From: Myxococcaceae bacterium
GTDB lineage: Bacteria; Myxococcota; Myxococcia; Myxococcales; Myxococcaceae
Assembly: GCA_019694575.1 (NCBI GenBank)
Contig: JAIBBR010000031.1
Span: 1 to 42,654, forward strand
DNA: 42,654 bases
Direction: 5' to 3'
Of this stretch, positions 11,744 through 41,900 are shown piece after piece. A model generated the notes under the pieces. It was not told the origin of the DNA and searched no databases. It was given only the letters and a program-made list of their open reading frames with translations. Position numbers and translations under genes: made by a program. How positions within the stretch are numbered: the first letter of the stretch is position 1; each line of letters starts with the position of its first letter.

Positions 11744-11791
11744 ACGAAGGGCCGATACACCAGAAACGTTCACCCTCACGTGCGTCTGCCC

Positions 11792-13741
11792 ATGTCTAAA
11801 CGCTCATATTCACTCGCCTTGCTTGGTTTGACGGCCGCCCTGAGCGCTTGCCGATGCGGGAGCGACCCGCTCGCCTGCGAAAAAGACGCCGAGTGTACCG
11901 ATTCGACCAAGCCTTTCTGCGGGGGCAAAGACGCTCGCTACATGTGCGTCGAATGCCGCGAAGACGTGCAGTGCGCTTCGGGTTTGTGTCTGCCCAACGG
12001 CACGTGCGGCAGCTGTGGCCCGCAGGCCGAATGTCCACATGGGCAAACCTGCTCTGCCGAGGGCCAGTGCGTCATCGGCTGCAGCACCGACCAAGGCTCC
12101 TGTCCGCCAGGCACGTATTGCGTCGCGGGTTCAGACTTCTGCGCCGAGTGCACGCAAGACACGCATTGCGGCCCCGGCCGCGTGTGCAGCCCCGAGCACA
12201 CCTGCTTGCCCGGCTGCTCGCCGCAAAACCCCCACTGCCCCATGGGCCTTTTGTGCGAGCTCACGCAAAAAACGTGCGTCGCCTGCTTGAGCGCCACCGA
12301 CTGTAAAAACCCTGCGCTGCCCGCGTGCGACGTGGCGAGCCAAACATGCGTGGCCTGCGTCGACAGCAGCACCTGCCCTTTTGCGACTCCCACCTGCGAC
12401 ATGGCGACACACACCTGCGTGGCGTGTTTGCAAAACAGCGACTGCCCTGCCGGCAATGTGTGCAGCAACCAAGCCTGCGTGCCGGGCTGCACGGCCACCC
12501 AAGGCTGCGCCAACGGCCAACAGTGCGACGTGGCGCGCGGCGCATGCGTGCTGTGCGTCAACGACGGGCACTGCGGTGCTTCAGCCCCTCGTTGCGACCC
12601 CGGTTCGCGCACCTGCGTCGCGTGTCTGCCGGGCACCACCGACAATTGCACCGGTGGAAATTACTGCCGCGACGATCACGTCTGCGAGCGGGGCTGCAAG
12701 TCGGGAGCTGATTGCCCGAGCGGAGTGTGCCTGGCTGATCATTCATGCCAGAGCTGCACCGACGACGCCCAGTGCGCTGCCGGCAAGGTATGCCAAGGCG
12801 GCAACTGCATGGCGGCCTGTGGCCCAAACAACCCATGTGGCCAAGGCAAAACGTGCTGCGAAGATCGCTGCGTCGATGATCAGAACGAGCCGCTCAACTG
12901 CGGAGCGTGCGGCAACGTGTGCGGCGCCGGCCAAGCGTGCTGCCAAGGCACCTGCAAAGCGCTCGACACGGCGAACGACTGCGGCGCGTGCGGCAATGCA
13001 TGTGGCGCGGGCAACGGGTGCTGCCAAGGCTCGTGTGCAGCCACGAATACACCTGCGCAATGCGGTGCTTGCGGCGTGAGCTGCGCGGCTGACCAATTCT
13101 GCGACGGCAGCCGCTGCGTCGACCTCACCTTTCCCAACTTCTGCGCCAACAAAAAGGTCTATGCCATCTACGACGGCATCGCCATCGACGACGCAGCCAC
13201 CAACGTGCTCGCTTCGACCGTCGCGCAAAACTGTTCGGCCTCGACGGTGATCAGCTACGGGCCGCAGAGCAACCCCAGCTGGGTTGATCAAACGACGGGA
13301 GAACTGCTTCTCGGCACCGGCGCTACCGTGATCACCGCGGGCGGGCCTTTTCCCAACAAGCCGCTCAAGTGGCTCGAGCGCACGCAGCAGCTCACCAAAG
13401 TCTACTTTCACACCAACGGAGTCGACACTTACTCGTTCAAACGGCGCAGCGACGAAGCGACGCTCACCTCGATGACCGTGTCAGAATGCTCGCCGCACCA
13501 CGACCGCTTCTTGATCGAACTCGCGACGGACCCCACCAACGGCACACTGGCACTCATTGGCTACGGCGTCTGCAATGGCGGCTACGGTACGCAAGCCGCG
13601 GCCTACCTATGGGCCAACGTGATGCTGCCCAACCGCATGGCATACCCCGACAGCTGGTACATTTTTGACTGGGTCGACGCCAACAACGACTCCATCGCCA
13701 ACCTGGGTGACACTTTCACGCGCGTAGACAGCGGCTTGTAG
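11792..13741 (+). CDS. Cys-rich multi-repeat lipoprotein, 649 aa
   Basis: The signal peptide ends in LSAC (Cys20), so this is a lipoprotein; the ATG at 11792 fits it better than the GTG at 11780. From ~20 to ~440 there are many short Cys modules: first blocks like C.V.C....CP.....C with acidic spacing, then repeats such as CVACVDSSTCPFATPTCD, and last three GACG-N-CGAGQ-CCQG modules of the kind common in large myxobacterial secreted proteins. The final ~210 residues form a separate domain with few Cys, rich in aromatic residues (KVYAIYDGIAIDD, LWANVMLPNRMAYPDSWYIF), which I do not recognise. Homologues of the Cys modules are sometimes misnamed 'tryptophan synthase alpha chain' in databases; there is no such enzyme here. 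Probably an outer-membrane or exported surface protein. Confidence 0.85.
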   Translation: MSKRSYSLALLGLTAALSACRCGSDPLACEKDAECTDSTKPFCGGKDARYMCVECREDVQCASGLCLPNGTCGSCGPQAECPHGQTCSAEGQCVIGCSTDQGSCPPGTYCVAGSDFCAECTQDTHCGPGRVCSPEHTCLPGCSPQNPHCPMGLLCELTQKTCVACLSATDCKNPALPACDVASQTCVACVDSSTCPFATPTCDMATHTCVACLQNSDCPAGNVCSNQACVPGCTATQGCANGQQCDVARGACVLCVNDGHCGASAPRCDPGSRTCVACLPGTTDNCTGGNYCRDDHVCERGCKSGADCPSGVCLADHSCQSCTDDAQCAAGKVCQGGNCMAACGPNNPCGQGKTCCEDRCVDDQNEPLNCGACGNVCGAGQACCQGTCKALDTANDCGACGNACGAGNGCCQGSCAATNTPAQCGACGVSCAADQFCDGSRCVDLTFPNFCANKKVYAIYDGIAIDDAATNVLASTVAQNCSASTVISYGPQSNPSWVDQTTGELLLGTGATVITAGGPFPNKPLKWLERTQQLTKVYFHTNGVDTYSFKRRSDEATLTSMTVSECSPHHDRFLIELATDPTNGTLALIGYGVCNGGYGTQAAAYLWANVMLPNRMAYPDSWYIFDWVDANNDSIANLGDTFTRVDSGL

Positions 13742-19048: not shown

Positions 19049-20032
19049 TTAACCGCCGGCGTCGGCCATGCTGAACGGCACCCGCTCTGCCTGCGTCATC
19101 AGCGGGTGAAAACTGCGCTTCTGACTCTGCGCGACACGCAGCATCGAGAGCAATTCTGCATCGGTCGCCCCCGCTTTCAGCGCAGGGCCTAGCGGTGCTC
19201 CCCCTGACTGATAGAGGCAGCCACGGAGTAACCCTTTCGCCGTCAACCGCAAGCGGTTGCAGTCGGTACAAAACGGCTCGGTGTCTGACGCGATGATGCC
19301 GAATGTCACACCGTCTGCCGTGCGGTAGAGCGCCGCCGGGTCTGATGGGTTGCGACGGGGTAAGCGCGTGACGAGCGTGTGTTGACCAATGCGCTCAACC
19401 ATTTGCTTGCCCGTGAAGAAGACCGAGCGCGTGTAGTCGACCGCGCTGCCCGTGTTCATCAACTCGATGAAGCGCACTTCAATGTGGTGGCGCGCTGAAA
19501 AGGCGAGAAAGTCATGCAGCTCGTCGTCGTTTTTACCGCGTTGCACCACCATGTTCATTTTCACGTGATTGAAGACACCGCGCGCGTTCACCACGGTGTC
19601 TAACACGTCGTCGACGTCGCCCTCGCCCATCAAGTCGCGGTACCGCTCGGGCTTCAAGCTGTCGACATGCACTGTAATGTCGTCGAGACCAGCTTCACGG
19701 AGCGCTTCGATGACTGGGCGTAGTTTTTGGCCGTTGGTGGTGAGCGCCAGGCTCACGCCAGGCATGCCGGCGCGAAAGGCCGCCACCACCCGAGGCACGT
19801 CGGTGCGTAAAAGTGGCTCACCACCGGTCAATCGCACCCGATTCACTCCGGCGCGCAAGAGCAATGGAGCCAACCGAGCATATTCGCTTGAGGACAAACG
19901 CTCTTGGTTGGGGGTGTAACGAGACACCGAGCCAGGCAGACAGTACGGGCAGTCGTACTGGCATTGCTCGAGCAGACTGACACGCAGGGTGTAGCCGGCT
20001 GGGCGAGGGTGCTGAAGAGAAACGGTGGACAC
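19049..20032 (-). CDS. moaA: GTP 3',8-cyclase MoaA (molybdenum cofactor synthesis), 327 aa
   Basis: A radical-SAM protein with CQYDCPYC (Cys24, Cys28, Cys31) binding the first 4Fe-4S cluster and SAM, then RLTGGEPLLR. The second cluster has Cys255, Cys258 and Cys272 (FCTDCNRLRLTAKG...GCLY), which binds GTP. The C-terminus ends in Gly-Gly, the conserved tail that MoaA needs for activity. It catalyses the first step of molybdopterin synthesis, GTP to 3',8-cyclo-7,8-dihydro-GTP. The start is a GTG with only a weak ribosome site. The following genes lie 36 bases downstream on the same strand. No other moa genes are in the window. Confidence 0.93.
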   Translation of the reverse strand: MSTVSLQHPRPAGYTLRVSLLEQCQYDCPYCLPGSVSRYTPNQERLSSSEYARLAPLLLRAGVNRVRLTGGEPLLRTDVPRVVAAFRAGMPGVSLALTTNGQKLRPVIEALREAGLDDITVHVDSLKPERYRDLMGEGDVDDVLDTVVNARGVFNHVKMNMVVQRGKNDDELHDFLAFSARHHIEVRFIELMNTGSAVDYTRSVFFTGKQMVERIGQHTLVTRLPRRNPSDPAALYRTADGVTFGIIASDTEPFCTDCNRLRLTAKGLLRGCLYQSGGAPLGPALKAGATDAELLSMLRVAQSQKRSFHPLMTQAERVPFSMADAGG

Positions 20033-23872: not shown

Positions 23873-24622
23873 TCAGGGGCGCAACGAGGCGGCCAACGCA
23901 TAAACGTCGCCCGAGCCCTCATCGATGCGGCGCGTACGCAACCACCGGGTCATTTCTTCGGCATTCAGCCACTGCGGCGTCGCCCAGCGCATGGTTTCAA
24001 CCAGCGAGGAGCGGAAACGATCGTGCCCCAACTGCGCCAACCGTTCGACACATTGCACGGCGCGGTCTTTCGCGACGGGAATGTATTCGAACGAGAGCGC
24101 GGACAAGGGGCGGCTCAACCCAAGCAACACGTCGAGCTCGAAACCTTCGACGTCGATTTTGCAAAACGCGGGCACTCCGTACCGCTCAAGCAAGGTGTCG
24201 AGCGTTTGCACTTCGACTTGCACCTGCTGGTCCCAGTCGATGCTGGCGAACCGACTGTCGCGGGTGACCTCATTTATCCACCCGGGTGACAAAGTTGAAA
24301 CGGTGGGTGTTCGCGAGCTGACGTGCAGCGTGGCCAAGCCCGCGTTTTCACCCAGCGCGACGTCGAGCAGCTCGACACGTGAATCGTGCCCGTACAGCGC
24401 GCGCAGCACCCGCATGCAATCGGCCTGAGGCTCGACGGCAATCACCCGCGCGCCCAAACGGAGCCACGACGAAACACGGTTGCCCACGTGGGCGCCAATG
24501 TCGAAGCAGAGCGCTCCCGGAGCGATAAATTGCGCATAAAACGCGCGCCGCCGCCGCGTTTTCCACGGTTGGCCGTAATACATGGCCATCGAGCGGGCGA
24601 GGCCGAAGACGCGGCTGAGCAT
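23873..24622 (-). CDS. FkbM-family SAM methyltransferase, 249 aa
   Basis: SAM-binding motif I is LCFDIGAHVGN, and the acidic end of strand 2 is VIAVEPQADC. FkbM hallmarks follow: VEVQTLDTLLERYG and FCKIDVEGFELDVLLGL, the IDVEG box. FkbM enzymes methylate hydroxyl groups, often of sugars in glycosides or polysaccharides. The start is ATG 24622, whose A is the last base of the TGA of the glycosyltransferase gene, so translation is coupled and the methyl acceptor is probably the sugar added by that enzyme (inference). It closes the gene set of the pterin-type cluster. Confidence 0.87.
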   Translation of the reverse strand: MLSRVFGLARSMAMYYGQPWKTRRRRAFYAQFIAPGALCFDIGAHVGNRVSSWLRLGARVIAVEPQADCMRVLRALYGHDSRVELLDVALGENAGLATLHVSSRTPTVSTLSPGWINEVTRDSRFASIDWDQQVQVEVQTLDTLLERYGVPAFCKIDVEGFELDVLLGLSRPLSALSFEYIPVAKDRAVQCVERLAQLGHDRFRSSLVETMRWATPQWLNAEEMTRWLRTRRIDEGSGDVYALAASLRP

Positions 24623-25713
24623 CACGCAGGTCCTCGCAGGTGAGCACGGCTGTCGAGCAACCTTTGTAATGCGCACTCGAAGGCCCGGGCCGACGCGTCC
24701 CAGGTGGGCAACGACGCCATGTTGTCGCGAGCGCCCTCGCGAAGCCGCTCGTACAGCGCCTTGTCGACGCGTACCGCATGCAGCGCGTCGACGAATTCAC
24801 TCTTGTCGCCCGGCCACGTTTTGATCGCGTCGCGGTTGTCGTGCAGAAAGTCCCACGGGCCGCCTTCGGTCCACCCGACGACTGGTACGCCCGCTTGGGC
24901 CGCTTCGGCGATGGCGATACCGAATGACTCGTAGCGCGCGCAGGCCATGAATACGTCGGCTTGGGCCAACGCGGCGCTCAATGCGGCACCCGTCAGCTCG
25001 CCGTGACATTCGACGCGCCCATCGAGCCCAAGCGCACTGCAGCGGTGCAGTACTTTTTGGGTGTATGCGGCGTCGAGGTCTGTTCTACCGATGAGCCGGG
25101 CGCGCCACGGGCCTTCAGGCAGCTTGGCGAGCACGTCGAGCAGCTCGAGCTGCCCTTTGTGCGGCAAGAAATGCCCCACATTGACGTAGCCAAAAGGGCG
25201 CTCCTGGCCCGGCTGCGAAGAAGGCGGCGGCGCGGGCAAGTGATCAACCCCCGGAGGAATGATGACGCCTCCGTTGACCGGCCCCAGCAGCCGCTCGGTC
25301 TCTTTCTGAATCGCGTGGCTGACGAAGACGTTCCAATGCACGCTGGTAAGAAACGTGTATTCGGCTTGTTGGGTGCCGCGCTCACGGTGCAACCGCGCAG
25401 TGGGAACGTGCGTGAGCCCAACACGAGAAACCGCATTTCCCCGGCTGTCCAAGCGGTGGTTCAACTTCGCATAGCCCTCGAAGCCGAGCTCGTCTTGCAC
25501 CAGCACGTCGAAGTTGAAGCGATCGACCTGCCGGGCCCACATGTCGAGCTCGCGCGCGGGTATGGCGAGCGGCGTGTCGATGACATTCACCCGGTGGCCA
25601 AGCGCGGTGAGCTTCTCGACCATCTTCAAGTCGTACATCGTGCCGCCCGAAACGACGGCGGGCACTTCGGGCGAGCTGGGCTCAAACCGGGGAATGAAAA
25701 AGCCAATCTTCAT
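24622..25713 (-). CDS. Family 4 glycosyltransferase, 363 aa
   Basis: A GT-B fold with an N-terminal GGTMYDLKMVEKLTALGHRV, a middle linker IIPPGVDHLPAP, and then FGYVNVGHFLPHKGQLELLD. The retaining GT4 signature E-x7-E is present in YESFGIAIAEAAQAG, with the usual PVVGWTEGG after it. It transfers a sugar from a nucleotide donor to an unknown acceptor. The ATG directly follows the stop of the pterin-synthase-like gene (TAG-ATG, no gap), and its TGA shares a base with the next ATG. This tight packing implies that the acceptor belongs to the pathway encoded around it (inference). Confidence 0.85.
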   Translation of the reverse strand: MKIGFFIPRFEPSSPEVPAVVSGGTMYDLKMVEKLTALGHRVNVIDTPLAIPARELDMWARQVDRFNFDVLVQDELGFEGYAKLNHRLDSRGNAVSRVGLTHVPTARLHRERGTQQAEYTFLTSVHWNVFVSHAIQKETERLLGPVNGGVIIPPGVDHLPAPPPSSQPGQERPFGYVNVGHFLPHKGQLELLDVLAKLPEGPWRARLIGRTDLDAAYTQKVLHRCSALGLDGRVECHGELTGAALSAALAQADVFMACARYESFGIAIAEAAQAGVPVVGWTEGGPWDFLHDNRDAIKTWPGDKSEFVDALHAVRVDKALYERLREGARDNMASLPTWDASARAFECALQRLLDSRAHLRGPA

Positions 25714-26091
25714 CTACAGCGCGATGCGAAAAGTGGCCCAGGCGGTCGGGTCTTCCCACAGGGTCAGCTTGAGCGAGTCGATGCCTTTGAGCTCGAGGCC
25801 GGCGCGCAGCCGCTCAGCGAAAAACTGCGCGAAGCGCTCGAGGCTGGGGTTCAAGCCTTTGAACTCTTCGAGGTCATTGAGCGTCTTCTGCTCGTAGCGC
25901 GCGCTGACGTGGTCGACGCGTTCTTTGAGCACGGCGATGTCGAAGAGGTAGCCGTGACGGTCAAGCGCGCGCCCTTCGAGAACGACTTCGATTAAATAGT
26001 CGTGCGAGTGGTGCTCGTTTTCTTTGCCCCAGTCGCCACCGATGAGCTGGTGAAACGAGACCAGGGGGCGACGAATCGCGACTTGGTACAT
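25714..26091 (-). CDS. 6-pyruvoyl-tetrahydropterin synthase/QueD-family protein, Glu-type, 125 aa
   Basis: Small T-fold protein of COG0720. Zinc ligands are His14 in SFHQL and His28 and His30 in HHSHDY, with HSH in place of the usual HGH. The position of the catalytic Cys in QueD (four before the first His of HGH) is Glu24 here. This Glu-for-Cys change is known from the PTPS-III type, which makes 6-hydroxymethyl-dihydropterin from dihydroneopterin. Later family features are DHV...TLND and the LWEDPTAWATF end with its Glu. So it is unlikely to make queuosine precursor and more likely handles a pterin. The ribosome site AAGGAG lies 11 bases upstream. It is translated directly before the glycosyltransferase. 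Confidence 0.8.
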   Translation of the reverse strand: MYQVAIRRPLVSFHQLIGGDWGKENEHHSHDYLIEVVLEGRALDRHGYLFDIAVLKERVDHVSARYEQKTLNDLEEFKGLNPSLERFAQFFAERLRAGLELKGIDSLKLTLWEDPTAWATFRIAL

Positions 26092-26110
26092 GGCTGTGAG
26101 TGCTCCTTTG

Positions 26111-26122
26111 ACGGCCGGCCGT
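26111..26122. promoter_or_regulatory. 12-bp perfect palindrome upstream of the pterin-synthase-like gene
   Basis: ACGGCCGGCCGT lies ~20 bases upstream of the ATG, directly 5' of the ribosome site on the - strand. The 158-base gap that contains it holds no gene and may house a second promoter of the cluster. Possible operator; evidence is the symmetry only. Confidence 0.3.
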
Positions 26123-26249
26123 GAAACAAAAAGCTCTTTAGTTCAACTGACGAGCACACGGCCAATCGCTTCGGGTCACTCTTAAACCACGTGTCTAGCC
26201 GTCTTCGTCACGGCCTTGATGAACCAGAAGTTGGACACGCTGCACACCC

Positions 26250-27245
26250 TCAGTACGTCAGCACCACCTGCAAGCAAGCGTCACTTTGCTTGTCGATCAG
26301 CTCATACGCCCGCGCCGCTTCTGCAAACGGCACGCGCTGCGTAATCAACGCCGGCCCGGGCAGACGCTTGAGCCACGACACCGCCACCGCCATGCGCCGC
26401 GCCTTGTCGAAACGGGCGGCAAGCTTGCTGTCAATGTGGCTCACCTGGCTGAAGAGCACGGTGTTGCGGTTGCGGTGCACCTGCGTGCCCAGCGCGAGGG
26501 ACGCCGTCTTGCTGCCGTACCAACTGCCCACCACCACGCGGCCTTCGCGGCGGCACAAGCCCAACGCCAGCGGCAACGCTTCGGGGTTGCCCGTCAGCTC
26601 GTAAACCAAGTCGAATTCGGCGGGAGGAGCCGCGCCTTTAGGGCTGAAGACGCTTACCTTCGAGGTGTACATCGGCCGCGACAACGCCAAACGTGAGGCC
26701 GATTGCTCCACCACGGCCACGTCACAGAAACCGGCTTGCGCGAGCATGCCCGCCACCCACGTACCCAACACACCCTGCCCGATGATTGCCACCCGTTCAC
26801 CCCACACCGGCGCGCCGTCCATCAGCAGTGAAACCGCGGTCTCGACATTGGCCAGAGGGCACGCGTCTTCGGCGCTAAGGCCTTCTGGCAACACCACCAC
26901 CTGTGACACTGGCGACACGTATTCTTGTTGATGCGGCTGAAAGGCGAACACGCGCTTACCCAAAAGCGTCTTCGCTACCGCGCCACCCAACTGCACCACG
27001 CGCCCCACATTCGAATAGCCGTAGCAAAGCGGGTACGTCAGCGCATGGCGGTGGGCTTCGAAGGTCGCGTCGACGGCGGCGCCCTGTTCAACCAAGCCGC
27101 GGTAAAAAAGCATTTCGGTACCGGCGCTGATGGCCGACAGCTCGGTCTGCACGCGCACGTCGTGCTCGCCGAGCGAAGAAACCGGTACCGGAGCCAACTG
27201 CAAGTCGAAAGGTTTCTGAAAATAAACCCCGAGCACGCCAGTCAC
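26250..27245 (-). CDS. Medium-chain dehydrogenase/reductase, zinc-alcohol-dehydrogenase-like, 331 aa
   Basis: An MDR enzyme. The N-terminal catalytic domain has TELSAISAGTEMLFYRG and YPLCYGYSNVGRVV, then the NAD(P)-binding Rossmann domain with VAIIGQGVLGTWVAGMLAQAG. The usual catalytic zinc Cys of alcohol dehydrogenases is replaced in the SAISAGTE segment, and the structural four-Cys zinc loop is absent, so it is probably zinc-free. That branch includes BchC-like and biosynthetic dehydrogenases acting on ring or sugar hydroxyls. The start is a GTG that overlaps the stop of the RibD-type gene by 4 bp (GTGA). It probably oxidises or reduces an intermediate of the cluster's product. Confidence 0.8.
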   Translation of the reverse strand: MTGVLGVYFQKPFDLQLAPVPVSSLGEHDVRVQTELSAISAGTEMLFYRGLVEQGAAVDATFEAHRHALTYPLCYGYSNVGRVVQLGGAVAKTLLGKRVFAFQPHQQEYVSPVSQVVVLPEGLSAEDACPLANVETAVSLLMDGAPVWGERVAIIGQGVLGTWVAGMLAQAGFCDVAVVEQSASRLALSRPMYTSKVSVFSPKGAAPPAEFDLVYELTGNPEALPLALGLCRREGRVVVGSWYGSKTASLALGTQVHRNRNTVLFSQVSHIDSKLAARFDKARRMAVAVSWLKRLPGPALITQRVPFAEAARAYELIDKQSDACLQVVLTY

Positions 27246-27964
27246 CGCGCGGCCCCTGACGCTTCGCCCGCGTACGGACCAGCGCGAATCAAATCAGGGC
27301 CCATGTGTTCTACCGCCGAGGCCGACCACCGCGCCAAAGTACGAGACAAGCCGTCATCGAGGCGCACCGCGAGTGGGTTGGCGAGCAACAGTGGCGACTC
27401 GGTGATGCACACGAAGTCGACGGCGCGCTCGGCGAAAAACCGCTTCAACACCGTGGCACCCCCTTCGACCATCACCGAGCTCACCCCGAGGCCTTGCAAA
27501 TGCTCGAATAACGCCGCCAGCGAAACGCCCTCGCACGAAGGCTCGAGCAACACCACCTGGGCACCGGCCGCGCGCAACGCCTCGGCGCGTGCGGGGTCTG
27601 CCTGGGTACAGCCGACAATCAACGGGGCTTCACCCGCGGTGGTCACCACGCGGGCGGTGAGCGGCGTACGCAAAGCTGAATCGAGCACCACACGGCGCGG
27701 TGACGGGCCGGGCACCAACCGGGTGGTGAGCAGCGGATCATCGCTCAGCACGGTACCCACGCCGACCAGCACCACGTCATGCACCGCACGCAGCGCGTGG
27801 GTCATACGCAGCGCGGCGTTGGCGCTGATGACGGTCGGTTCGCCCTGGGTGCGCGAAAGGCAACCGTCGCGGCTCATGGCGAACGTCGCGGTAACGAAAG
27901 GTCGCGCGGTGCGCGCCTGGGTCATCGCCTTGGCCTGCTCCCATTCACTTTGCCAGTTGAGCAT
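27242..27964 (-). CDS. RibD C-terminal-type reductase (dihydrofolate-reductase fold), 240 aa
   Basis: The whole protein matches the reductase domain of RibD, without the deaminase domain: TATFAMSRDGCLS, DVVLVGVGTVLSDDPLLTTR, RRVVLDSALRTPL, VSSVMVEGGATVLKRFFA, and a C-terminal DFVCITESP. RibD uses NADPH to reduce the ribosyl group of a pyrimidine made from GTP; stand-alone copies act in riboflavin synthesis or specialised pathways. ATG 27964 is used; GTG 27970 is possible. It begins the - strand gene set, 137 bases from the divergent transferase fusion, and overlaps the dehydrogenase. This placement argues for a GTP-derived pyrimidine or pterin product rather than ordinary riboflavin synthesis. 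Confidence 0.85.
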   Translation of the reverse strand: MLNWQSEWEQAKAMTQARTARPFVTATFAMSRDGCLSRTQGEPTVISANAALRMTHALRAVHDVVLVGVGTVLSDDPLLTTRLVPGPSPRRVVLDSALRTPLTARVVTTAGEAPLIVGCTQADPARAEALRAAGAQVVLLEPSCEGVSLAALFEHLQGLGVSSVMVEGGATVLKRFFAERAVDFVCITESPLLLANPLAVRLDDGLSRTLARWSASAVEHMGPDLIRAGPYAGEASGAAR

Positions 27965-28101
27965 GTGCACTTCAGCCTCTGCGCTTCTGGGAGCCGTCGC
28001 CGGCCTTCACGCCGCACCCGAGCCGTGTCTCGCTTCTAACATCGCTGACCTTAAGGCCGCATCCAAAAGCTCCCCGGGCATGGTAGGCCCCAGCAACAAC
28101 G

Positions 28102-30474
28102 ATGGACGCAGCCGAAGGCATGAGGCGCCGGTGGAGCGAAGCGCACAGCGGCGCGCTGCTTTTGGCCACGGGTGCGTCGGTCGCGGCTGACTCCATTTGG
28201 CCGATGGCGATTACCGGGTTACTCGGGTTGGGGGTGCTGGTGGGCTGGCGGCGTCACTTTGGACAAACCGGCGCCCCCTTCGGCGTGGCGAACACGGTCA
28301 CCGTGGCACGCGTGCTGGTGACATTCGCGCTCGCGGCCTTTTTGTGTCGCAGGCCATGGTGGTCGGCCCTCACGGGTGCGGGGGTGCTGCTCGCCGACGC
28401 CGTCGATGGCGCGTTGGCCCGCAGGCTCAAGCAAGCATCTGACTTTGGCGCTCAGCTCGACATGGAAGCCGACGCCTATTTCATCTTGATGCTCTGCGCG
28501 GTGCTGGTGTTCGGCGTGGGCGTGGGCCCCTGGGGGCTTTTTCCCGGTGTGGTTCGCTACGCCTTCGTGGTGGTGCGTTGGGCTCACCGCCCGGTCGACG
28601 TGCCTGAACGGCGCTCGCCGTGGGGCCGGGTGATTTTTCTTGGGCTGTCGCTGAGCCTGCTGGCGGTGCTCGGTTTTCACAGCGCACGCTGGCCCTGGCC
28701 CGCTTTGTACGCAGCCACCGCGGCGTTGACGCTGTCGTTCGTGCCCGACTTTCAGCTCACCCTGCGGGCCGCACGCGCCCCGGCGACGGCGACGCACCGC
28801 GCGCTGTGGTGGGCGTTGCCCTTAGGTGCCCAAATGCTGCTCTTCGTGCCCGGGTTGGTCTTTCAAGATTCGCCAAGGCATTGGGCGGTGCTGGGTTCAC
28901 TCTCGTTCGAGTTTCTCGTCGCGGCGGGGCTGGTCATGCTTGCCGCCCACACCCGCTTAAAACACCTGGCCCGCGTGGCCGCGCTGGTGCTGTGGGCGTT
29001 ATTCGCGCTTTTTCTCACCTACCACCAAGGCTACGCCTTCTTCTTTTTGCGCCAACCGGCGCTGGGCGAAGACTGGCGCCTGTCGCTCAACTTGGTTCAT
29101 TTCTTGAGCGACGAATGGTCTGCCCATCTCACCGTCTTCGCGCTGGCCGGTGCCACCACCGCGGTGTTGGGTTTGCGTTGGGCGTGGCGCATTTTAGGCC
29201 AACTGCAAGCACGCGCGTTGGAATGGCGACCAGGGCAACTGTTGAAGGGGCTGGCCGTGCTCTTGAGCGTCGCGGCACTGGGCCTGTGGGCGACCGACAC
29301 GAAAGGTTGGGCGTTCGGGGTGAAACTGCTCTCGCGGTTGGCGGCCGACAATTACCTCACCTCGCTCGACTACGCAGGTGACATGGGAGCGCTGGCCCAA
29401 GCGGCGCCCGACTTGAGCTACGAGCGGCTACTCACCGCCAAGCTCAAGCAACGGCCCAACGTTTATTTGTTGATGATCGAAGCCTATGGCGGCGCGCTGG
29501 TGACCTGCGACACCCGGCAGGCCTACGCGTCGCTGATGACGTACGCACAAGAACGGCTGGCCGCCAAGGGCTACCACGCGCGCACCGCGTACAGCCGCGC
29601 TCCGGTGCACAGCGGAGGCTCGTGGAAAAGCATCGCCACGGTTGAAACGGGCATTCACATCGAGCGCAACACCACGTTCGAATTGCTCGAGCGCACGGCC
29701 GCGCGCTTGCCCACCCTTTCTGGCTTTTTTCGCGAGCAGGGCTATCAAACCTTGGCGCTGCAACCCGGCAGCACTGACCGCACCGGGCTGCGCCGTTACG
29801 ACATGTACCGACGGCACGTGAATATCGGAGGGCCCGAGCTTGCGTACAAAGGCCCCACGTATGTCTTCGTGGGCACGCCTGATCAATACAGCGTGGGTTT
29901 CTTTTTGGACAACGCGCTGCCCAAAGTCACCGCGCCGTATTTCGTCTATTACATGAGCGTTTCGACGCATTACGACTGGTGGACGACGCCGCCCTTCGTC
30001 ACCGACTGGCGCGCACTCAATGACCGGCAAGCCAACTTGGCGAGCCTGACCGTGCCGTGGAAACCGCTCGCCGGAGTCGAAAACATTTCTGAGCGGCCGC
30101 AGCGGTTGTACTTCGACACCGTGCAATACGAGTGGCGGGTGCTGCTCGAGATGATTGAGCGCGAGGCGAGCGACGACGCCATTTTTTTCATCTTGGGTGA
30201 TCACCAACCGCGGCTGTCGTGTGCTCCCGCGACGAAATCATTCGAGACGCCGGTGCATGTCATTTCGAAAAGCGAACCCTTTCTTCAACGCTTCGACGCG
30301 CTCGGCTTTGCGCCGGGCCTCTACGCTAAGCCCGCGCAAAACACCCCGCTCTTGCACGAAGGTTTCTTCTCGATGGTGGTGTCGAAAATGACGGAGCAGT
30401 ACGGCGAGATGCCCGCACAAGCGCCTTCGCTCTATTTTCCCAACGGCATCGGGCACGCGGGGCTGCTTCGCTAA
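28102..30474 (+). CDS. CDP-alcohol phosphatidyltransferase fused to sulfatase/LtaS-like domain, 790 aa
   Basis: Residues ~60-215 are a CDP-alcohol phosphatidyltransferase with the complete motif D-x2-DG-x2-AR-x8-G-x3-D-x3-D (from Asp99 in LLADAVDGALARRLKQ to Asp124). About four to six membrane helices follow (~235-400). From ~450 on there is an alkaline-phosphatase-superfamily domain of the sulfatase/LTA-synthase/phosphoethanolamine-transferase type: NVYLLMIEAYGG (Glu459), a probable nucleophile Ser in VHSGGSWKSI, SVSTHYDWW (His622), and FFILGDHQP (Asp and His). The first domain would move a phosphoalcohol from CDP-alcohol onto an acceptor inside; the second acts outside the membrane. It is divergent from the RibD-type gene. 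I know of no standard protein with this order. The product may be a lipid-linked or phosphodiester-bearing compound (inference). Confidence 0.82.
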   Translation: MDAAEGMRRRWSEAHSGALLLATGASVAADSIWPMAITGLLGLGVLVGWRRHFGQTGAPFGVANTVTVARVLVTFALAAFLCRRPWWSALTGAGVLLADAVDGALARRLKQASDFGAQLDMEADAYFILMLCAVLVFGVGVGPWGLFPGVVRYAFVVVRWAHRPVDVPERRSPWGRVIFLGLSLSLLAVLGFHSARWPWPALYAATAALTLSFVPDFQLTLRAARAPATATHRALWWALPLGAQMLLFVPGLVFQDSPRHWAVLGSLSFEFLVAAGLVMLAAHTRLKHLARVAALVLWALFALFLTYHQGYAFFFLRQPALGEDWRLSLNLVHFLSDEWSAHLTVFALAGATTAVLGLRWAWRILGQLQARALEWRPGQLLKGLAVLLSVAALGLWATDTKGWAFGVKLLSRLAADNYLTSLDYAGDMGALAQAAPDLSYERLLTAKLKQRPNVYLLMIEAYGGALVTCDTRQAYASLMTYAQERLAAKGYHARTAYSRAPVHSGGSWKSIATVETGIHIERNTTFELLERTAARLPTLSGFFREQGYQTLALQPGSTDRTGLRRYDMYRRHVNIGGPELAYKGPTYVFVGTPDQYSVGFFLDNALPKVTAPYFVYYMSVSTHYDWWTTPPFVTDWRALNDRQANLASLTVPWKPLAGVENISERPQRLYFDTVQYEWRVLLEMIEREASDDAIFFILGDHQPRLSCAPATKSFETPVHVISKSEPFLQRFDALGFAPGLYAKPAQNTPLLHEGFFSMVVSKMTEQYGEMPAQAPSLYFPNGIGHAGLLR

Positions 30475-30931: not shown

Positions 30932-31990
30932 TCAGTCACGCATGAAGTGGCAGGTGTAACCGCCCGGGTTTTTCAGCAGGTAGTCTTGGTGGTAGCTCTC
31001 GGCGGGGTAAAACCGGCCTGCTTTGACGATTTCAGTGACGACCGGGTTTTTCCATTTGCCTGATTTGTTCACCTGATCTTTCACCTTTTGCGCCACTTGG
31101 GCTTGGGTGTCATTCAAGACAAACAGCGCCGAACGGTACTGCGTGCCCACGTCGTTGCCTTGCCGGTTGCGCGTGGTGGGGTCATGCATGCGAAAAAACA
31201 CTCCGAGCAGTTGCTCATAGGTGAGCTTCTGGGGGTCAAACGTCACTTGCAACGCTTCGGCGTGCCCGGTGTTGCCTTGCTTCACGTCTGAATATGTCGG
31301 GTTGTCGAGTGTGCCTCCGGCGTAGCCGACTTCAGTATCAATCACGCCGGGCAGCTTGCGAATGATGTCTTCCATGCCCCAGAAACAGCCACCGGCCAGC
31401 ACCGCCACTTCGGTCTGTGCGGCTTTGCCCGGCGTCGCTGAACCAAAAAGCTTCGCGTACTGGCCGTAGCCCTTCGCTTCTAACTGGGCCAGGGGGACAA
31501 ATTTCAAAGACGCCGAGTTGATGCAGTAACGCAGCCCTCCCTTGTCGCTCGGGCCGTCGTCGAACACGTGCCCCAAGTGAGAATCGGCCTTGCTCGAGCG
31601 CACTTCAACGCGCGTCATGCCCAGCGTCTTGTCTTTCTTCTCAACCACGAAGGCCTTGTCGAGAGGCTTGGTGAAGCTGGGCCAACCCGTGCCCGAGTCG
31701 AACTTGTCGGTCGACGAAAACAGCGGCTCACCTGACACCACGTCGACGTACAGGCCCGGGGCGTGGTTGTCCCAATAGGCATTGCGAAAGGGCGGCTCGG
31801 TGCCACATTCTTGCGTCACTTTGAACTGCTCGGCTGACAGTTGCTTCTTCAGCTCCTCGGTCGAAGGCTTCACGTACTTCTCCTTGGTGAGAGCGCTCGA
31901 AGAGGGGGCTTCGGCGCCAGCGGCAAATAACGGCAGGCATAAAGTCAGCGCAACCGAAAGCAGAGTATTGTGAAGGCGTCGAAATCTCAT
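30932..31990 (-). CDS. msrBA: Exported MsrB-MsrA fusion, methionine sulfoxide reductase, 352 aa
   Basis: A signal peptide (~1-26, ending FAAGAEA) sends it out of the cytoplasm. The MsrB domain (~40-170) has [40 protein letters not shown] and the catalytic [10 protein letters not shown]. The two CxxC zinc sites of other MsrB forms are missing. A Cys in QECGTEPPF could act as the resolving Cys. The MsrA domain (~195-352) begins with GGCFWGMED (catalytic Cys), then [14 protein letters not shown] and AESYHQDYL. The order MsrB-MsrA is the reverse of PilB-type fusions. It repairs both sulfoxide forms in periplasmic proteins. ATG 31990 fits the AAGGA site better than ATG 31996. Confidence 0.92.
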
Positions 31991-32055
31991 GGGCATTCCT
32001 TCGGAGGGTTCGCGGTGCGTTTCTTCTTTTAAGTAAGGTCGCTGACGCTGCTTTT

Positions 32056-35965: not shown

Positions 35966-38900
35966 TCAGTGCGAGCTGCTCACCCGGGCCGGCTGACGGC
36001 GGCGAATGAAGAGCGCCCACATCAACGCCGCGAGCCCCAAGCCCAACGAGCCCGCGCTGCTGTTACAGCCACAGCCGCCGCCGGCCAGGTACAGCTCATG
36101 CTTTTTGACGGTGATGTTCACGTCTACGCGCGGGCCTGAGCCTTCGCTGACACCAACGGTGTGCTCGCCGTCAGACAGCTTGTCGGGCAAGGTAAAGGTC
36201 CAGTTGCCGTTTTCGTCGACGACTGCGGTGCCGACCGGGTTGCCATCGACATAGACGGTGATGATTGTACCCGGGGTGCCCGTACCCTTGATGACCACCG
36301 GCAACACCGGGTCGACTTCGCTGCCTGGCGTGGGCGACGTAATCGTCGGCCCCACACTCTGGTGCGAAGGCACGTTGAACGCCACTGGGCTGCTTTCGGG
36401 CCCCACGTTGCCCGCCGCGTCGGTCGACTTCGCCGTCACACTGTGCATGCCTTGCGGCAGGGCGACCGTCGAGGTGAATGACCAGTTGCCGTTGCTGTCG
36501 GCCGTCACCGTGCCCACTTGCACGCCGTCGACGAAGACGGCCACCGTGGCACCCGGCTCTGAAGTACCGCTGTAGGTCGGCAACGACGTGGTGTCACTGC
36601 CCGCGGCTGGGGCGGTAATCACCGGCGCCTGGGGAGCCAGCGTGTCTTTGAGCACCTGCTGGGTGGCCATGCCCGTGCCTGCGCCGTTCATCTGCTGCGC
36701 GACGACACTGACCTGCGCCGCGTCGGGCACTTGAGAGACGTCGAGGGTGACAGAGAACATGCCCATGTTGCAGGCCACCATCGCCGTCGCCGAACCCACG
36801 GTGACCGTGACATTGCCCGAGCCCGTGCTGCAGGTACCTGACACCGGGTACATCGCCGCGTTGGCGCCGTTGATGGCGACCAGCGTGCCCAAGGTAACCG
36901 TGGGCGCGGCGGTGACCGTGATGGTGACGGGCGTCGAAGGCGGGCTGACGTTGCCCGCGCCGTCTTCTTGCGTCGCCACCAGCTCGTGCAGGCCGGGAGC
37001 CAACGTGCTGTTGCAGCTCCAGTTGCCCATGGCGTCGACCGTGGCCACGCACACCGTCATGCCCATTTCAGTCACCGTCACCTTGGCCCCTGGCTCACCG
37101 GTGCCCGAAATCACCGGGTTCATGCCTACGGGGCCGGCAGGAGGCGTAATCACCGGCGCCAGCGGCGCCATGGCGTCTTTCGCCGCGGTACCTGTCGCCT
37201 TGCCCGTGCCCGCCGAGTTGGTCTGCGAGGCGCTTACCGTCACCATCGCCGCATCAGGCTCGGCGCTGACGTCGAGTTGCGTGCTGAACAGGTCCATCGT
37301 GCAGGCCACCGTGGTGGTGATGGCGCCCACCGCAATGGTGACCATGCCCTCTGAGCTCTCGCAGGTACCGGCCACCAGGTACATCGCCACGTTGGCCGCG
37401 TTGATGGGTGCCAGCGGAGCCAGCGTCACGTCGGGCAGGTTGGCCACCGTGAAGTCATGCGGAGCCGACTGCGGGCTGCTGTTACCCACCGCGTCAACCT
37501 GCTCAGCGGTGACCGTGTGCGGCCCAACCCCCAACGTGGTGGCGCAGCTGAAGTTGCCCAAACCGTCGGCTTGCACGGTGCAAACGACGTTCATGCCTTC
37601 ACGCACTGTCACCACCGCGCGCGGTTCAGCAGTGCCGGTAATGACTGGGTTTTCGCTCACCGTACCCATGGCGGCCGGCGTCACGAAGACGGGCGGTAAC
37701 ACCGTCGCGTCTTTGGTCGTCTGTTGGGTGTCGCTGCCTGTGCCGTTGGGGTCGGTTTGAGAAGCAGTGACGGCGATATTGGTGCCGTCGGGCAACGCCG
37801 ATACATCGACCGTGGTGGCAAACTGACCCGCGGTGCAGGCCGTCGTCGCCATCACCGAGCCCACCGTGATGCTCACCGTGCCGCTGCCCAAGCTGCACGT
37901 ACCCGCCACCGGGTAGCTCGCGGCATTGGCCAGGGTGATGGTGCCCGGCACGTTGAGCGCCACCGACGGCACCAGGCCCACAGTGAAGTCACGCGGCATC
38001 GAGGGAGGGCTGGGGTTGCCGTAGGTGTCGACCATCGACACGGTGATGCTGTGCGGGCCAACCGGCAAGGTGGTGGCACACGACCAGTTACCGCTGCTGT
38101 TGGCCGTGGCGGTGCACACCGTCATGCCATTTTCGGTGACGGTCACCGTCGCGCCGGGCTCGGTAAGACCGCTGACCGAGGGGTTGGCTCCGGTGGTGCC
38201 TCCTTGCGTCGGGCTGGCCACCGTCGGTGCGACAGCCACCGTGTCTTTGCCCGTGGGCTTGGCGTCGATACCAGTGCCCGAGACGTTGGTCTGCGACGCA
38301 GCCACGGTGATGGGCGCGTTGTCCGCCAGCGCCGACACATTCAACGACGTCGAGAACATGCCCGCGGTGCAGGCCGTGCTCGCGGTGATACTGCCCACCG
38401 AAAGCGTCACGTCGCCCGCGCCCGTGGTGCACGTGCCGCTCACCGGGTAAAGCGAAGCATTGGCCGCGTTAATCAGCGCCGGCGTCGCCACCGTCACCGC
38501 CGGCACGTTGGCCACGGTGAAGCTTACGTTGGCCGGCACGCTGGTGTTGCCCACCACGTCGGTTTGTGTCGCCGTCAAGGCATGCGGCCCCACCGCCAAG
38601 GTGCTCGGGCAGCTGAAGGTGCCGGTATTTGACGCCGTCACCGTGCAGATGACCGTGCTGCCTTCGCGCACCGTGACGCTGGCGCCCGGCTCAGCCGCGC
38701 CGGTGACAGTCGGGTTGACCGCGACACGTTGGCCATTGGCCGGGTTGGTAAAGACGGGCGGGGCCACCAAGGTGTCTTTCACTGTATTCTGGGTGTCGCG
38801 ACTCGAGCCCGCCACGGTGGTTTGCGCAGCGCTCACCGCCAGCGGGTTGACGTCGGCAATCGCGCTCACGTCGACTTGGGTGGTGAAAGCATTCATCGTG

Positions 38901-41900
38901 CAACTCGCTGTCGCCACCACCGAGCCAATGGTGATGAGCACTGAGCCGGCTCCGCTGGTGCAGGTACCGGCCACGGTGTAGGCGGCAGCGTTGGCGGCGC
39001 TCACCGCAGGCGGTGCAGTCAGCACCACCACCGGGGTGGGCGCCACGTCGAAGGTGGTGGGCGCCGAAGCCGCGCTGGTGTTACCCGCCACGTCGACTTG
39101 CGAAACGGTGACCGTGTGGCTGCCCGCGGTCAACGTCGACGCGCAGGTCCACGCGCCCATCATGTCGGCGGTGGCGGTGCAAACCGTATTCATGCCTTCG
39201 CTGACGGTGATCAGCGCGCCTGGTTCAGCCGTGCCCGACATCGCCGGGTTCGGCGCCACCGTGCTGCCGTTGGCCGGCGAGACCAACACCGGAGCTGCGA
39301 CGGTGGTGTCTTTGCGCGTGGTCAACGTCACGGTGCTGGTGCCCGAAGCATTGGTTTGGGTGGCGGTGACGTCGACGCTCGCCGCGTCAGCCAACGCCGA
39401 GACGTCGAGCGTGGCGCTGAAAACACCCGCCGTGCAGGTGGCGGTGCCCATCACGGTACCGACCAAGAGGTTCACGGTGCCGGCTCCCGTCACGCAAGTG
39501 CCCGAAACCGGGTACGCGGTGGCGTTGGCAGCGCTGATGACCGCCGGAGCGTCGAGCGTGACCATCGGCGCCGTGGGAATCGAGAAGGTCACCGCCGCCG
39601 AAGCGCTGCTGGTGTTGCCCGCCGTGTCGACTTGCGTCGCGGTGACGGTGTGCGAGCCGCTCATCAGCGTCGAGTTGCAGGTCCACGCGCCGAGCGCATT
39701 GGCGGTGGTGGAACAAACCACGGTCATGCCCTCGCGCACGGTGACGGTGGCGTTACCTTCAGAGGTACCGGTGAGGGTCGGGCCGGGAGCCACCACGTCG
39801 CCATCGGCGGGGCTGGCGATGGTCGGCGGCGCCGCGACAGTGTCTTTTCGGGTGGTGCCGTTGGCCGAGCCGATACCCGTGATGTTGGCTTGCGACGCCA
39901 GCACGTTGATGCTCGCGTTGTCAGGCACTGCAGAGACGTCGAGCGCGGCGGTGAAGGTGCCCATGTTGCAGGCCACCATCGCAATCACGGTGCTCACCGA
40001 GACCGTGACCGAGCCTTGGCCCGCCGAGCAAGTGCCCGTGACGGGGTACGCGGTGGCGTTCGCTGAAGCAATGACCGCCAGCGTATTCAATGTCACCACC
40101 GGCGCCCCGGGAATGGTGAAGTGGCGATCAGCCGTGGCCACGCTGGTGTTGCCAGCCACGTCGACCTGCGTGGCGGCGACGGTATGCATGCCAATGGCCA
40201 AGGTCGAATTGCATGACCAGTCGCCCGAGGTATCGACGACCGCGGTGCACACCACGGTCATGCCTTCACGCACAGTGACAGTGGCGCCGATTTCACCGGT
40301 ACCCGTAAGCGTCGGGTCGGGAGCGACGACCCCGCCTTCAACCGGCGTGGCAATGACCGGCGCGGCGACCACGGTGTCTTTGCTGGTCACCGCGTTGGCA
40401 GTACCGGTGCCCGCAATGTTGGTCTGCGAAGCGCTGACGGCAATGCCCGCGCCGTCCATCAAGGTTGCGACATTGAGTGTGGTGGTGAAAGCTCCCGCCG
40501 CGCACGCCGTGGTGCCCGTCACCGTCCCAACGCTGACAGAAACGGTGCCCGACGCCGTGGTGCAGGTACCGCTGACGGGGTAACTGGCCGCGTTCGCCGC
40601 GTTGATGACGCCAGGGCTGTTCAACGTCACCGCGGGCACGCCGGTCACCGTAAAGCTTGTGTTGGGCGAAGCCGCGCTGGTGTTGCCAGCCACATCGACT
40701 TGGGTGGCATTCAGGGTGTGCATGCCGATGCCGAGCGACGAGTTGCAGCTAAAGTTGCCCATGCCGTTGGCGGTGGTGGTGCACACCACCGTCATGCCTT
40801 CACGCACCGTTACCGTGGCCCCTGCTTCGGCTGTGCCGCTGATTTGCGGGTTGGGCGCGACGGTCGACGCCATCGCCGGTGAGACAATGGCGGGAGGCGC
40901 CACGGTGGTGTCTTTCGTCGTCGTCGCATTTGCCGTGCCCGTGCCAGTGACGGTGGTTTGCGAAACAGTGACGGCCAACCCGGTGCCGTCCATCAAACCC
41001 GAAACGTTCAGGTTGGCGGTGAAGACGCCCAAGGTGCACAGCGCGGTGCCGTTGACCGTCTCTATTGAAATAGAAACGTTGCCCGCCAACGTGTCGCAGG
41101 TGCCCGACACGGTGTAAGCCGTGGCGTTGGCTGCGTTGATGATGCCTGGCGTGTTGAGGGTCACGTTCGGCACCGCGGGAATGGTGAAGAAGCGGTTCGG
41201 CGACGCCGCGCTGGTGTTGTTCGCCAAGTCAGTTTGGGTGGCGTTGATGGTGTGGTTGCCCGTGCCGAGCGTGGTGGAGCAGCTCCAGTTGCCCATGCCG
41301 TTGACGGTGGCGGTGCAAACCACGGCCATGCCTTCGCGCACGGTGACGGTGGCACCCACTTCGCCGGTGCCGGTGATGGTGGGGTTCGGCGCGACGAACG
41401 ACAGCGCAGCCGGGGTCGAAATGACTGGCGCGACAATGGTGGTGTCTTTCGAGGTGAGGGCGTTGGCGGTATCAGTACCTGTGACGTTGGTCTGCGACGC
41501 GCTGACGGCAATCATCGTACCGTCGGGCACCGCGGTGACGTTCAGGTTGGTGGTGAAGGTGCCGCCTGCACAAGCCGCGGTGCCGTTGACTCCGCCGACA
41601 GAGACTGAGACGTTGCCTTGGCCCGTGCTGCAGGTACCGCTCACCGGGTAGCTGGCCCGGTTCGCCACGTTGATGACCGCGGGCATGTTCAGAGTAACCA
41701 CAGGCGCCGCGGGAACCGAGAAGGTGCGGTTCGCCGAAGCAGCGCTGGTGTTATTCGCCGCGTCTGTCTGCGTGGCGTTGATGGTGTGCGAGCCGACGCC
41801 CAAACTCGAAGCGCAGCTCCAGTTGCCCGCGCCGTTGACGACGCCGCTGCACACCACGGCCATGCCTTCGCGCACCGTAACCGTCGCGCCAACTTCACCC

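Follow-up and report, generated by a model that had tools for sequence, protein, structure and literature searches.

The window analysed here is a stretch of 42,654 nucleotides from a Myxococcaceae bacterium (GCA_019694575.1, contig JAIBBR010000031.1, positions 1-42,654), and the cluster in question, at 23873-30474, comprises six genes that encode a RibD-type reductase, a dehydrogenase of the MDR family, a PTPS-family protein, a GT4 glycosyltransferase, an FkbM methyltransferase and a fusion of a CDP-alcohol phosphatidyltransferase with a sulfatase-like domain. All six are borne out by reading frames, sequence and Pfam. Comparison with other genomes indicates that this copy is one variant of a widespread, uncharacterised system, and the six genes almost certainly form one functional unit. 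The product would be a GTP-derived molecule of the pterin type that is glycosylated, methylated and carried on a membrane phospholipid, a reading to which we assign a probability of about 45%. Of its parts, a GTP-derived diaminopyrimidine or pterin as the product is likely, and its linkage to a lipid could go either way.

Evidence for a common function comes from the recurrence of the set. A tblastn search of plasmid records with the window PTPS returned 12 records, each with MDR matched no more than about 1.5 kb away, and a bacterial PTPS query of the FGPAQ type returned 20, with MDR adjacent in 16. Both searches together cover 30 plasmid records, of which 26 place MDR beside PTPS. The other four are Streptomyces plasmids, and the one that was opened (L141, 7001-7399) has a lone FGPAQ-type PTPS gene on a linear plasmid, with no cluster partner. 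Conversely, MDR occurs without PTPS at two loci, in Halomicrobium and in Natrarchaeobaculum, where it follows a gene for GTP cyclohydrolase IIa (GCHIIa).

Annotated sister loci were read in Haladaptatus, Haloarcula, Streptomyces, Natrarchaeobaculum, Thiodictyon, Peteryoungia, Methylosinus, Palleronia, Rhodobacteraceae SC52, Neorhizobium, Microbacterium, Halomicrococcus, Natronorubrum, Halobellus, Haloarcula pelagica, Agrobacterium and Rhizobium SL42. They share a core of MDR, PTPS and a class I methyltransferase, usually with GT4 in between, and around it recur RibD, GTP cyclohydrolase II (GCHII) or GCHIIa, CDP-alcohol phosphatidyltransferase, sulfatase, FkbM, a flippase-like protein (PF03706), creatininase and cytochrome b561. 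Relatives of all six window families are found together on rhizobial plasmids, and nearly all of the recurring members are contiguous in Rhizobium SL42 and SSA_523; subsets of the set are found in haloarchaea, Streptomyces, Microbacterium and a purple sulfur bacterium. Since the MDR-PTPS pair recurs in two domains of life and the rhizobial clusters have the six-family content, the adjacency is more than chance. The window variant is set apart by its fused phosphatidyltransferase and sulfatase, by having FkbM instead of the class I methyltransferase and by a PTPS of the GDWGxEN type.

Within the Myxococcota, an MDR profile at 1e-40 matched 4 of 195 genomes (that of the window, G162, G187 and G072), and PTPS adjoins MDR in each. 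The occurrence of the genes apart in close relatives, which had been named as fatal to the original prediction, is thus not borne out for MDR and PTPS, and the neighbourhood search it had proposed finds the set in both Archaea and Bacteria. In G162, from the same family as the window, the order RibD-MDR-PTPS-GT4-FkbM is unchanged. Another contig of that genome begins inside RibD, where the two contigs probably join, and runs on to a stand-alone CDP-alcohol phosphatidyltransferase gene, which is divergent from RibD as in the window. G187 has RibD-MDR-PTPS-GT4, with sulfatase, phosphatidyltransferase and flippase-like genes in a row on another contig. The sulfatase half occurs in 4 of the 195 genomes, three of which carry MDR; without the window genome the overlap is 2 of 3 (hypergeometric p 0.0005, a figure that ignores relatedness). 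A relative of the sulfatase half is present in G160, of G162's genus (G160:C1; L135, 9274-11166), and neither MDR nor PTPS of the cluster type was found in that genome, which is 85% complete. In an MDR and PTPS tree, the window groups with G162 and then G187, beside the haloarchaea, and G072 falls in a separate clade with the FGPAQ-type bacteria. From this grouping, bacterial and archaeal carriers have probably exchanged these genes.

The layout of the window cluster is given in Table 1. The overlap of RibD and MDR is the 4 bp GTGA (27242-27245), the TAG stop of PTPS directly abuts the ATG of GT4 with no base between them, and the TGA of GT4 and the ATG of FkbM have one base in common. These junctions read exactly as first described. 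The five genes share a strand and the junctions just listed, but the gap between MDR and PTPS divides them, so that tight coupling is seen for RibD-MDR and for PTPS-GT4-FkbM rather than for all five jointly. The fusion gene is indeed divergent to the five, and the region between presumably holds both divergent promoters.

Table 1. Genes and intergenic regions of the cluster, with positions in the window.
Feature	Position	Strand	Size	Support
FkbM methyltransferase (ATG at 24622)	23873..24622	-	249 aa	PF05050 60 bits, TIGR01444 90 bits
GT4 glycosyltransferase	24622..25713	-	363 aa	PF00534 71.9 bits
PTPS-family protein, GDWGxENxHHSHxY type	25714..26091	-	125 aa	PF01242 87.7 bits
Gap between MDR and PTPS	26092..26249		158 bp	sequence
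Zinc-less MDR dehydrogenase, BchC-like	26250..27245	-	331 aa	best NCBIfam model BchC, 84.7 bits
RibD-type reductase domain alone	27242..27970	-	242 aa	PF01872 128 bits
Divergent intergenic region	27971..28101		131 bp	position
CDP-alcohol phosphatidyltransferase::sulfatase-like (alkaline phosphatase superfamily) fusion	28102..30474	+	790 aa	PF01066 49.1 bits

The window RibD scores below the cut-offs of both TIGR00227 (138 bits against 150) and TIGR00326, the model for bifunctional RibD with its fused deaminase (96 against 156). Its closest relatives in the PDB are RibD and pyrimidinone-phosphate reductases, and alignment with these shows that it keeps DDP and EGG, motifs of the pyrimidine reductases. 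All ten cluster RibDs compared (the window protein and nine relatives) lack the deaminase and contain PF01872 only. The 2-amino group should therefore be retained, as in a pterin.

BchC is an enzyme that oxidises a secondary alcohol. The window MDR falls outside the BchC family proper, with a score against TIGR01202 well under the cut-off of 291.25, and is 38-41% identical to the haloarchaeal cluster MDRs. Where zinc would usually be bound by Cys and His-Glu, it reads A-GTE and GY-S in the alignment, and equivalent losses are found in all cluster MDRs. Given a RibD without deaminase, a zinc-less MDR nearest to BchC and a PTPS that keeps the Glu at the ring-anchoring position, RibD and MDR may act as a redox pair that turns the ribose chain into a ketose. 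A PADLOC assignment of the MDR to E1-E2 models was weak, came from the nucleotide-binding fold and was rejected.

The PTPS-family protein keeps H14/H28/H30 and E113 and lacks the catalytic Cys and Asp-His. The Glu that aligns with the ring-anchoring Glu is kept, as are the three zinc-type histidines throughout the window's clade, and the identity to the Haladaptatus cluster PTPS is 43%. The sequence departs from the signatures of PTPS-I, PTPS-III and PTPS-IV. Against the QueD/PTPS-I model TIGR03367 it scores 47.5 bits, with a cut-off of 89.25, and in the CxxxHGH motif the Cys is replaced by E and HGH by HSH. The PTPS-III motif is ExxHGH (PMC5041015), and the window reads E24-N-E-H-H28-S-H30, with the Glu at -4 rather than -3. 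The PTPS-IV signature is FGPAQ (PMC5445326), a motif present in the bacterial sister clade where the window has WGKEN. The genomic neighbours typical of PTPS-IV are partly there: RibD_C adjoins, and GCHII is elsewhere in the window genome and inside the cluster at sister loci. The nearest solved structure is PDB 3d7j (SCO6650), which differs in having FGPAQ and HGA where the window protein has GDWGKEN and HSH and belongs to a sister clade with the haloarchaea. A scan of genome contigs with PTPS alone gave only three weak matches, in Azospirillum, and searches in relatives returned mostly other PTPS proteins of about 30% identity, with no other cluster genes nearby. The window genome itself has two more PTPS-family genes (G000:C27:28401-28736 and G000:C195:9072-9512), the first of which is its best match to the Pfam PTPS model.

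Entry from GTP is most visible at the sister loci, where comparison with GTP cyclohydrolase loci, one of the checks first proposed, finds GCHII in bacteria and GCHIIa in haloarchaea. Enzymes of the GCHIII/IIa type release a formylated intermediate that must be deformylated by ArfB or by the creatininase-family BrbF (PMC9478397). A creatininase gene is nearby at the Haloarcula locus, and another stands beside the GCHII gene of the Streptomyces cluster, in which Met replaces the active-site Tyr. GCHII of this Met type, as in S. coelicolor SCO6655, reportedly yields the formyl product. The rhizobial and Palleronia clusters have a Tyr-type GCHII and no creatininase. Because the deformylase thus tracks the cyclohydrolases expected to release a formylated intermediate and the RibDs lack a deaminase, homology gives good support to an early route that leads from GTP to 2,5-diamino-6-ribitylamino-pyrimidinone phosphate.

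The decorating enzymes are shared as well. Nine sister loci encode a GT4 related to that of the window, and the window FkbM is 41-44% identical to those of the Peteryoungia and Palleronia clusters; 5 of 8 FkbM matches on plasmids lie inside such clusters.

The fusion protein carries the exact CDP-alcohol phosphotransferase motif D-x2-DG-x2-AR-x8-G-x3-D-x3-D at residue 99. The other half matches the Pfam Sulfatase model at 23.7 bits, below the cut-off of 25, and matches the annotated sulfatase of a sister locus at 3.6e-27, with IEAYGG, HSGGSW and GDHQP aligned to the sister sulfatases. In Peteryoungia, Rhizobium, G187 and G162 the two halves are encoded separately, and the separate genes are neighbours at sister loci, often accompanied by the flippase-like protein. 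The conservation of the set in Archaea and Bacteria and the splitting of the fusion support a single GTP-derived, perhaps lipid-linked system, and this much of the predicted glycosylated, methylated and lipid-linked pterin or pyrimidine stands, while the product itself we infer.

The lipid module also occurs by itself. Four Rhodobacterales plasmids (L137, L138, L139 and L140) have cytochrome b561, phosphatidyltransferase and sulfatase genes without MDR or PTPS, two of them with a flippase. At three of the four loci read, an NMT1/THI5-type importer and a GT4 with 54-62% identity to a Palleronia cluster GT4 come after the module. The nearest solved relative of the importer's binding protein is a formyl-aminopyrimidine-binding protein, a weak hint, since NMT1 importers also carry sulfonates, that the head group is pyrimidine-like and can be either made or imported. 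Three alphaproteobacteria (L043, L047 and L139) have genes for MdoH-type glucan glucosyltransferases close to the cassette or to the lipid module.

The following pathway can be proposed, in which the first two steps are supported by homology and by the pattern of genes and the later ones are more conjectural. GCHII, encoded at a separate locus here, would open GTP to give 2,5-diamino-6-ribosylamino-pyrimidinone 5'-phosphate, which the deaminase-less RibD would reduce to the ribityl form with the 2-amino group retained. MDR would then oxidise a side-chain hydroxyl, most simply at C2', and the resulting ketone would close on the 5-amino group to give dihydroneopterin phosphate, so that a reductase-dehydrogenase pair would replace the Amadori rearrangement that GTP cyclohydrolase I carries out. 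This bypass is possible, though on balance doubtful. The PTPS-fold protein would work on the pterin ring and side chain, GT4 would add a sugar and FkbM, or elsewhere also the class I methyltransferase, a methyl group. The CDP-alcohol phosphatidyltransferase would couple the molecule to a phosphatidyl group, and the fused alkaline phosphatase superfamily domain, outside the membrane, would transfer or trim the head group. The flippase-like protein of the sister loci suggests export of the product. A bolder and rather improbable extension is that the membrane-anchored pterin works together with cytochrome b561 as a redox carrier or an exported redox head group, that GCHII, RibD and MDR stand in for GTP cyclohydrolase I and that haloarchaea and bacteria came to share the system by horizontal transfer.

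Several observations weigh against a decorated pterin lipid. None of the carriers has a known product. The window cluster has no GCHII, and the Tyr-type GCHII at a separate locus of the genome may serve riboflavin only. The reaction of the PTPS protein cannot be read from its sequence, since the catalytic Cys and Asp-His of the known PTPS and QueD enzymes are lost. The class I methyltransferase of the other clusters has no convincing match in the window genome, and glycosylation may not be universal, because GT4 is missing from the annotated core of four sister loci. Finally, the Rhodobacterales module does without RibD, MDR and PTPS. This last point also fits a soluble pterin or pyrimidine glycoside, comparable to the cyanobacterial pterin glycosides, made by RibD, MDR, PTPS, GT4 and the methyltransferase, with phosphatidyltransferase, sulfatase and flippase as a separate lipid pathway nearby, as does the lack of a phosphatidyltransferase gene from the stretch read around MDR, PTPS, GT4 and methyltransferase in Haladaptatus, Methylosinus, Neorhizobium and Halomicrococcus. 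However, the core has that gene next to it in haloarchaea, Streptomyces, Thiodictyon, Microbacterium and rhizobia, and in two Myxococcaceae the gene is divergent from RibD, which makes a soluble product the less expected outcome, if a credible one.

Alternatively, RibD and PTPS may have been co-opted for a sugar or polyol on which MDR, GT4, FkbM and the phosphatidyltransferase also act, to make a non-pterin head group of a lipid or surface glycan. A PTPS without known catalytic residues would suit this, as would the GT4, FkbM, MdoH, PfkB/ribokinase and sugar genes near some clusters, but the cyclohydrolase and deformylase in sister clusters, the pyrimidine reductase motifs of RibD and the pyrimidine-type importer that accompanies the lipid module where biosynthesis genes are absent make it unlikely. 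A side branch of an already named cofactor pathway, flavin or the deazaflavin F420, is more remote still. Relatives of RibD and GCHII form the common entry to flavin and F420, and a role of PTPS-IV in F420 synthesis has been cited as unpublished (PMC5041015), but F420 synthesis has no use for GT4, phosphatidyltransferase, FkbM or sulfatase, and no F420 or riboflavin genes besides RibD and GCHII are annotated in the sister loci read, though no genome-wide search was made. That the genes are chance neighbours from unrelated known pathways can hardly be maintained: every family is common alone and the MDR-PTPS gap separates two gene groups, but the recurrence of the set across domains, together with the split fusion, already contradicts chance adjacency, which was rejected on these grounds.

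The decorated pterin lipid would resemble several known systems in part. A network analysis from 2017 described PTPS-IV (COG0720) with PF00925 and RibD_C as neighbours (AGeNNT cluster-node 62; PMC5445326), where PF00925, contrary to the description there as GTP cyclohydrolase I including FolE2, is GCHII. The likeness lies in a PTPS-fold protein with RibD_C and, at sister loci, GCHII as neighbours, and the MDR, GT4, methyltransferase, phosphatidyltransferase and sulfatase partners are not described there. No description of these members or of a product was found in the open literature searched (subscription literature excluded). The proposal of a new biosynthetic system thus holds for the unit, which conservation supports, but the system also occurs in other genomes, and its neighbourhood was in part already in print. 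We found no characterised pathway with this gene set and rate the system as categorically new in that sense. The archaeal-type entry to riboflavin (GCHIII/ArfA, ArfB or BrbF and a pyrimidinone reductase) is expected to share the first steps, by way of the diamino-ribosylamino- and ribitylamino-pyrimidinone phosphates, but the clusters lack deaminase, lumazine synthase and riboflavin synthase and continue with MDR and PTPS. Sugar-bearing pterins are known from cyanobacteria (cyanopterin and biopterin glucosides), where a glycosyltransferase makes them (PMC13259868). The likeness would be in the sugar and its enzyme, and the known compounds are soluble. To our knowledge, no CDP-alcohol phosphatidyltransferase, sulfatase or flippase has been tied to them. 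A membrane CDP-alcohol phosphatidyltransferase works with an extracytoplasmic alkaline phosphatase superfamily transferase in the phosphatidylglycerol/LtaS and phosphatidylethanolamine/EptA systems, to which the flippase-like protein of the sister loci adds a further likeness; here the two are one chain, linked to pterin-type genes.

Elsewhere in the window, a fused MsrB/MsrA methionine sulfoxide reductase (30932-31996, - strand) lies directly past the fusion gene. A MoaA-type radical SAM enzyme (19049-20032, - strand), from the molybdenum cofactor pathway and thus another GTP-to-pterin enzyme, is encoded about 4 kb from the cluster, and nothing indicates that it is a member. Farther out are a protein of 2228 aa that has some 13 bacterial Ig-like repeats (35966-42652, - strand), probably a surface protein, and a protein (11780-13741, + strand) that matches Pfam Stig1 (stigma-specific protein), a cysteine-rich family named for plants.

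If the proposed pathway is correct, it would define a new class of lipid, linked to pterin, and a second way from GTP to dihydropterin, with carriers that span Archaea, Pseudomonadota, Actinomycetota and Myxococcota. It would give a testable function to PTPS-family genes that are labelled "6-carboxytetrahydropterin synthase" and assigned to queuosine in databases, and to MDR genes labelled "zinc-binding" that have no zinc ligands. Methylosinus trichosporium OB3b and Haloarcula are among the cultured organisms with sister loci.

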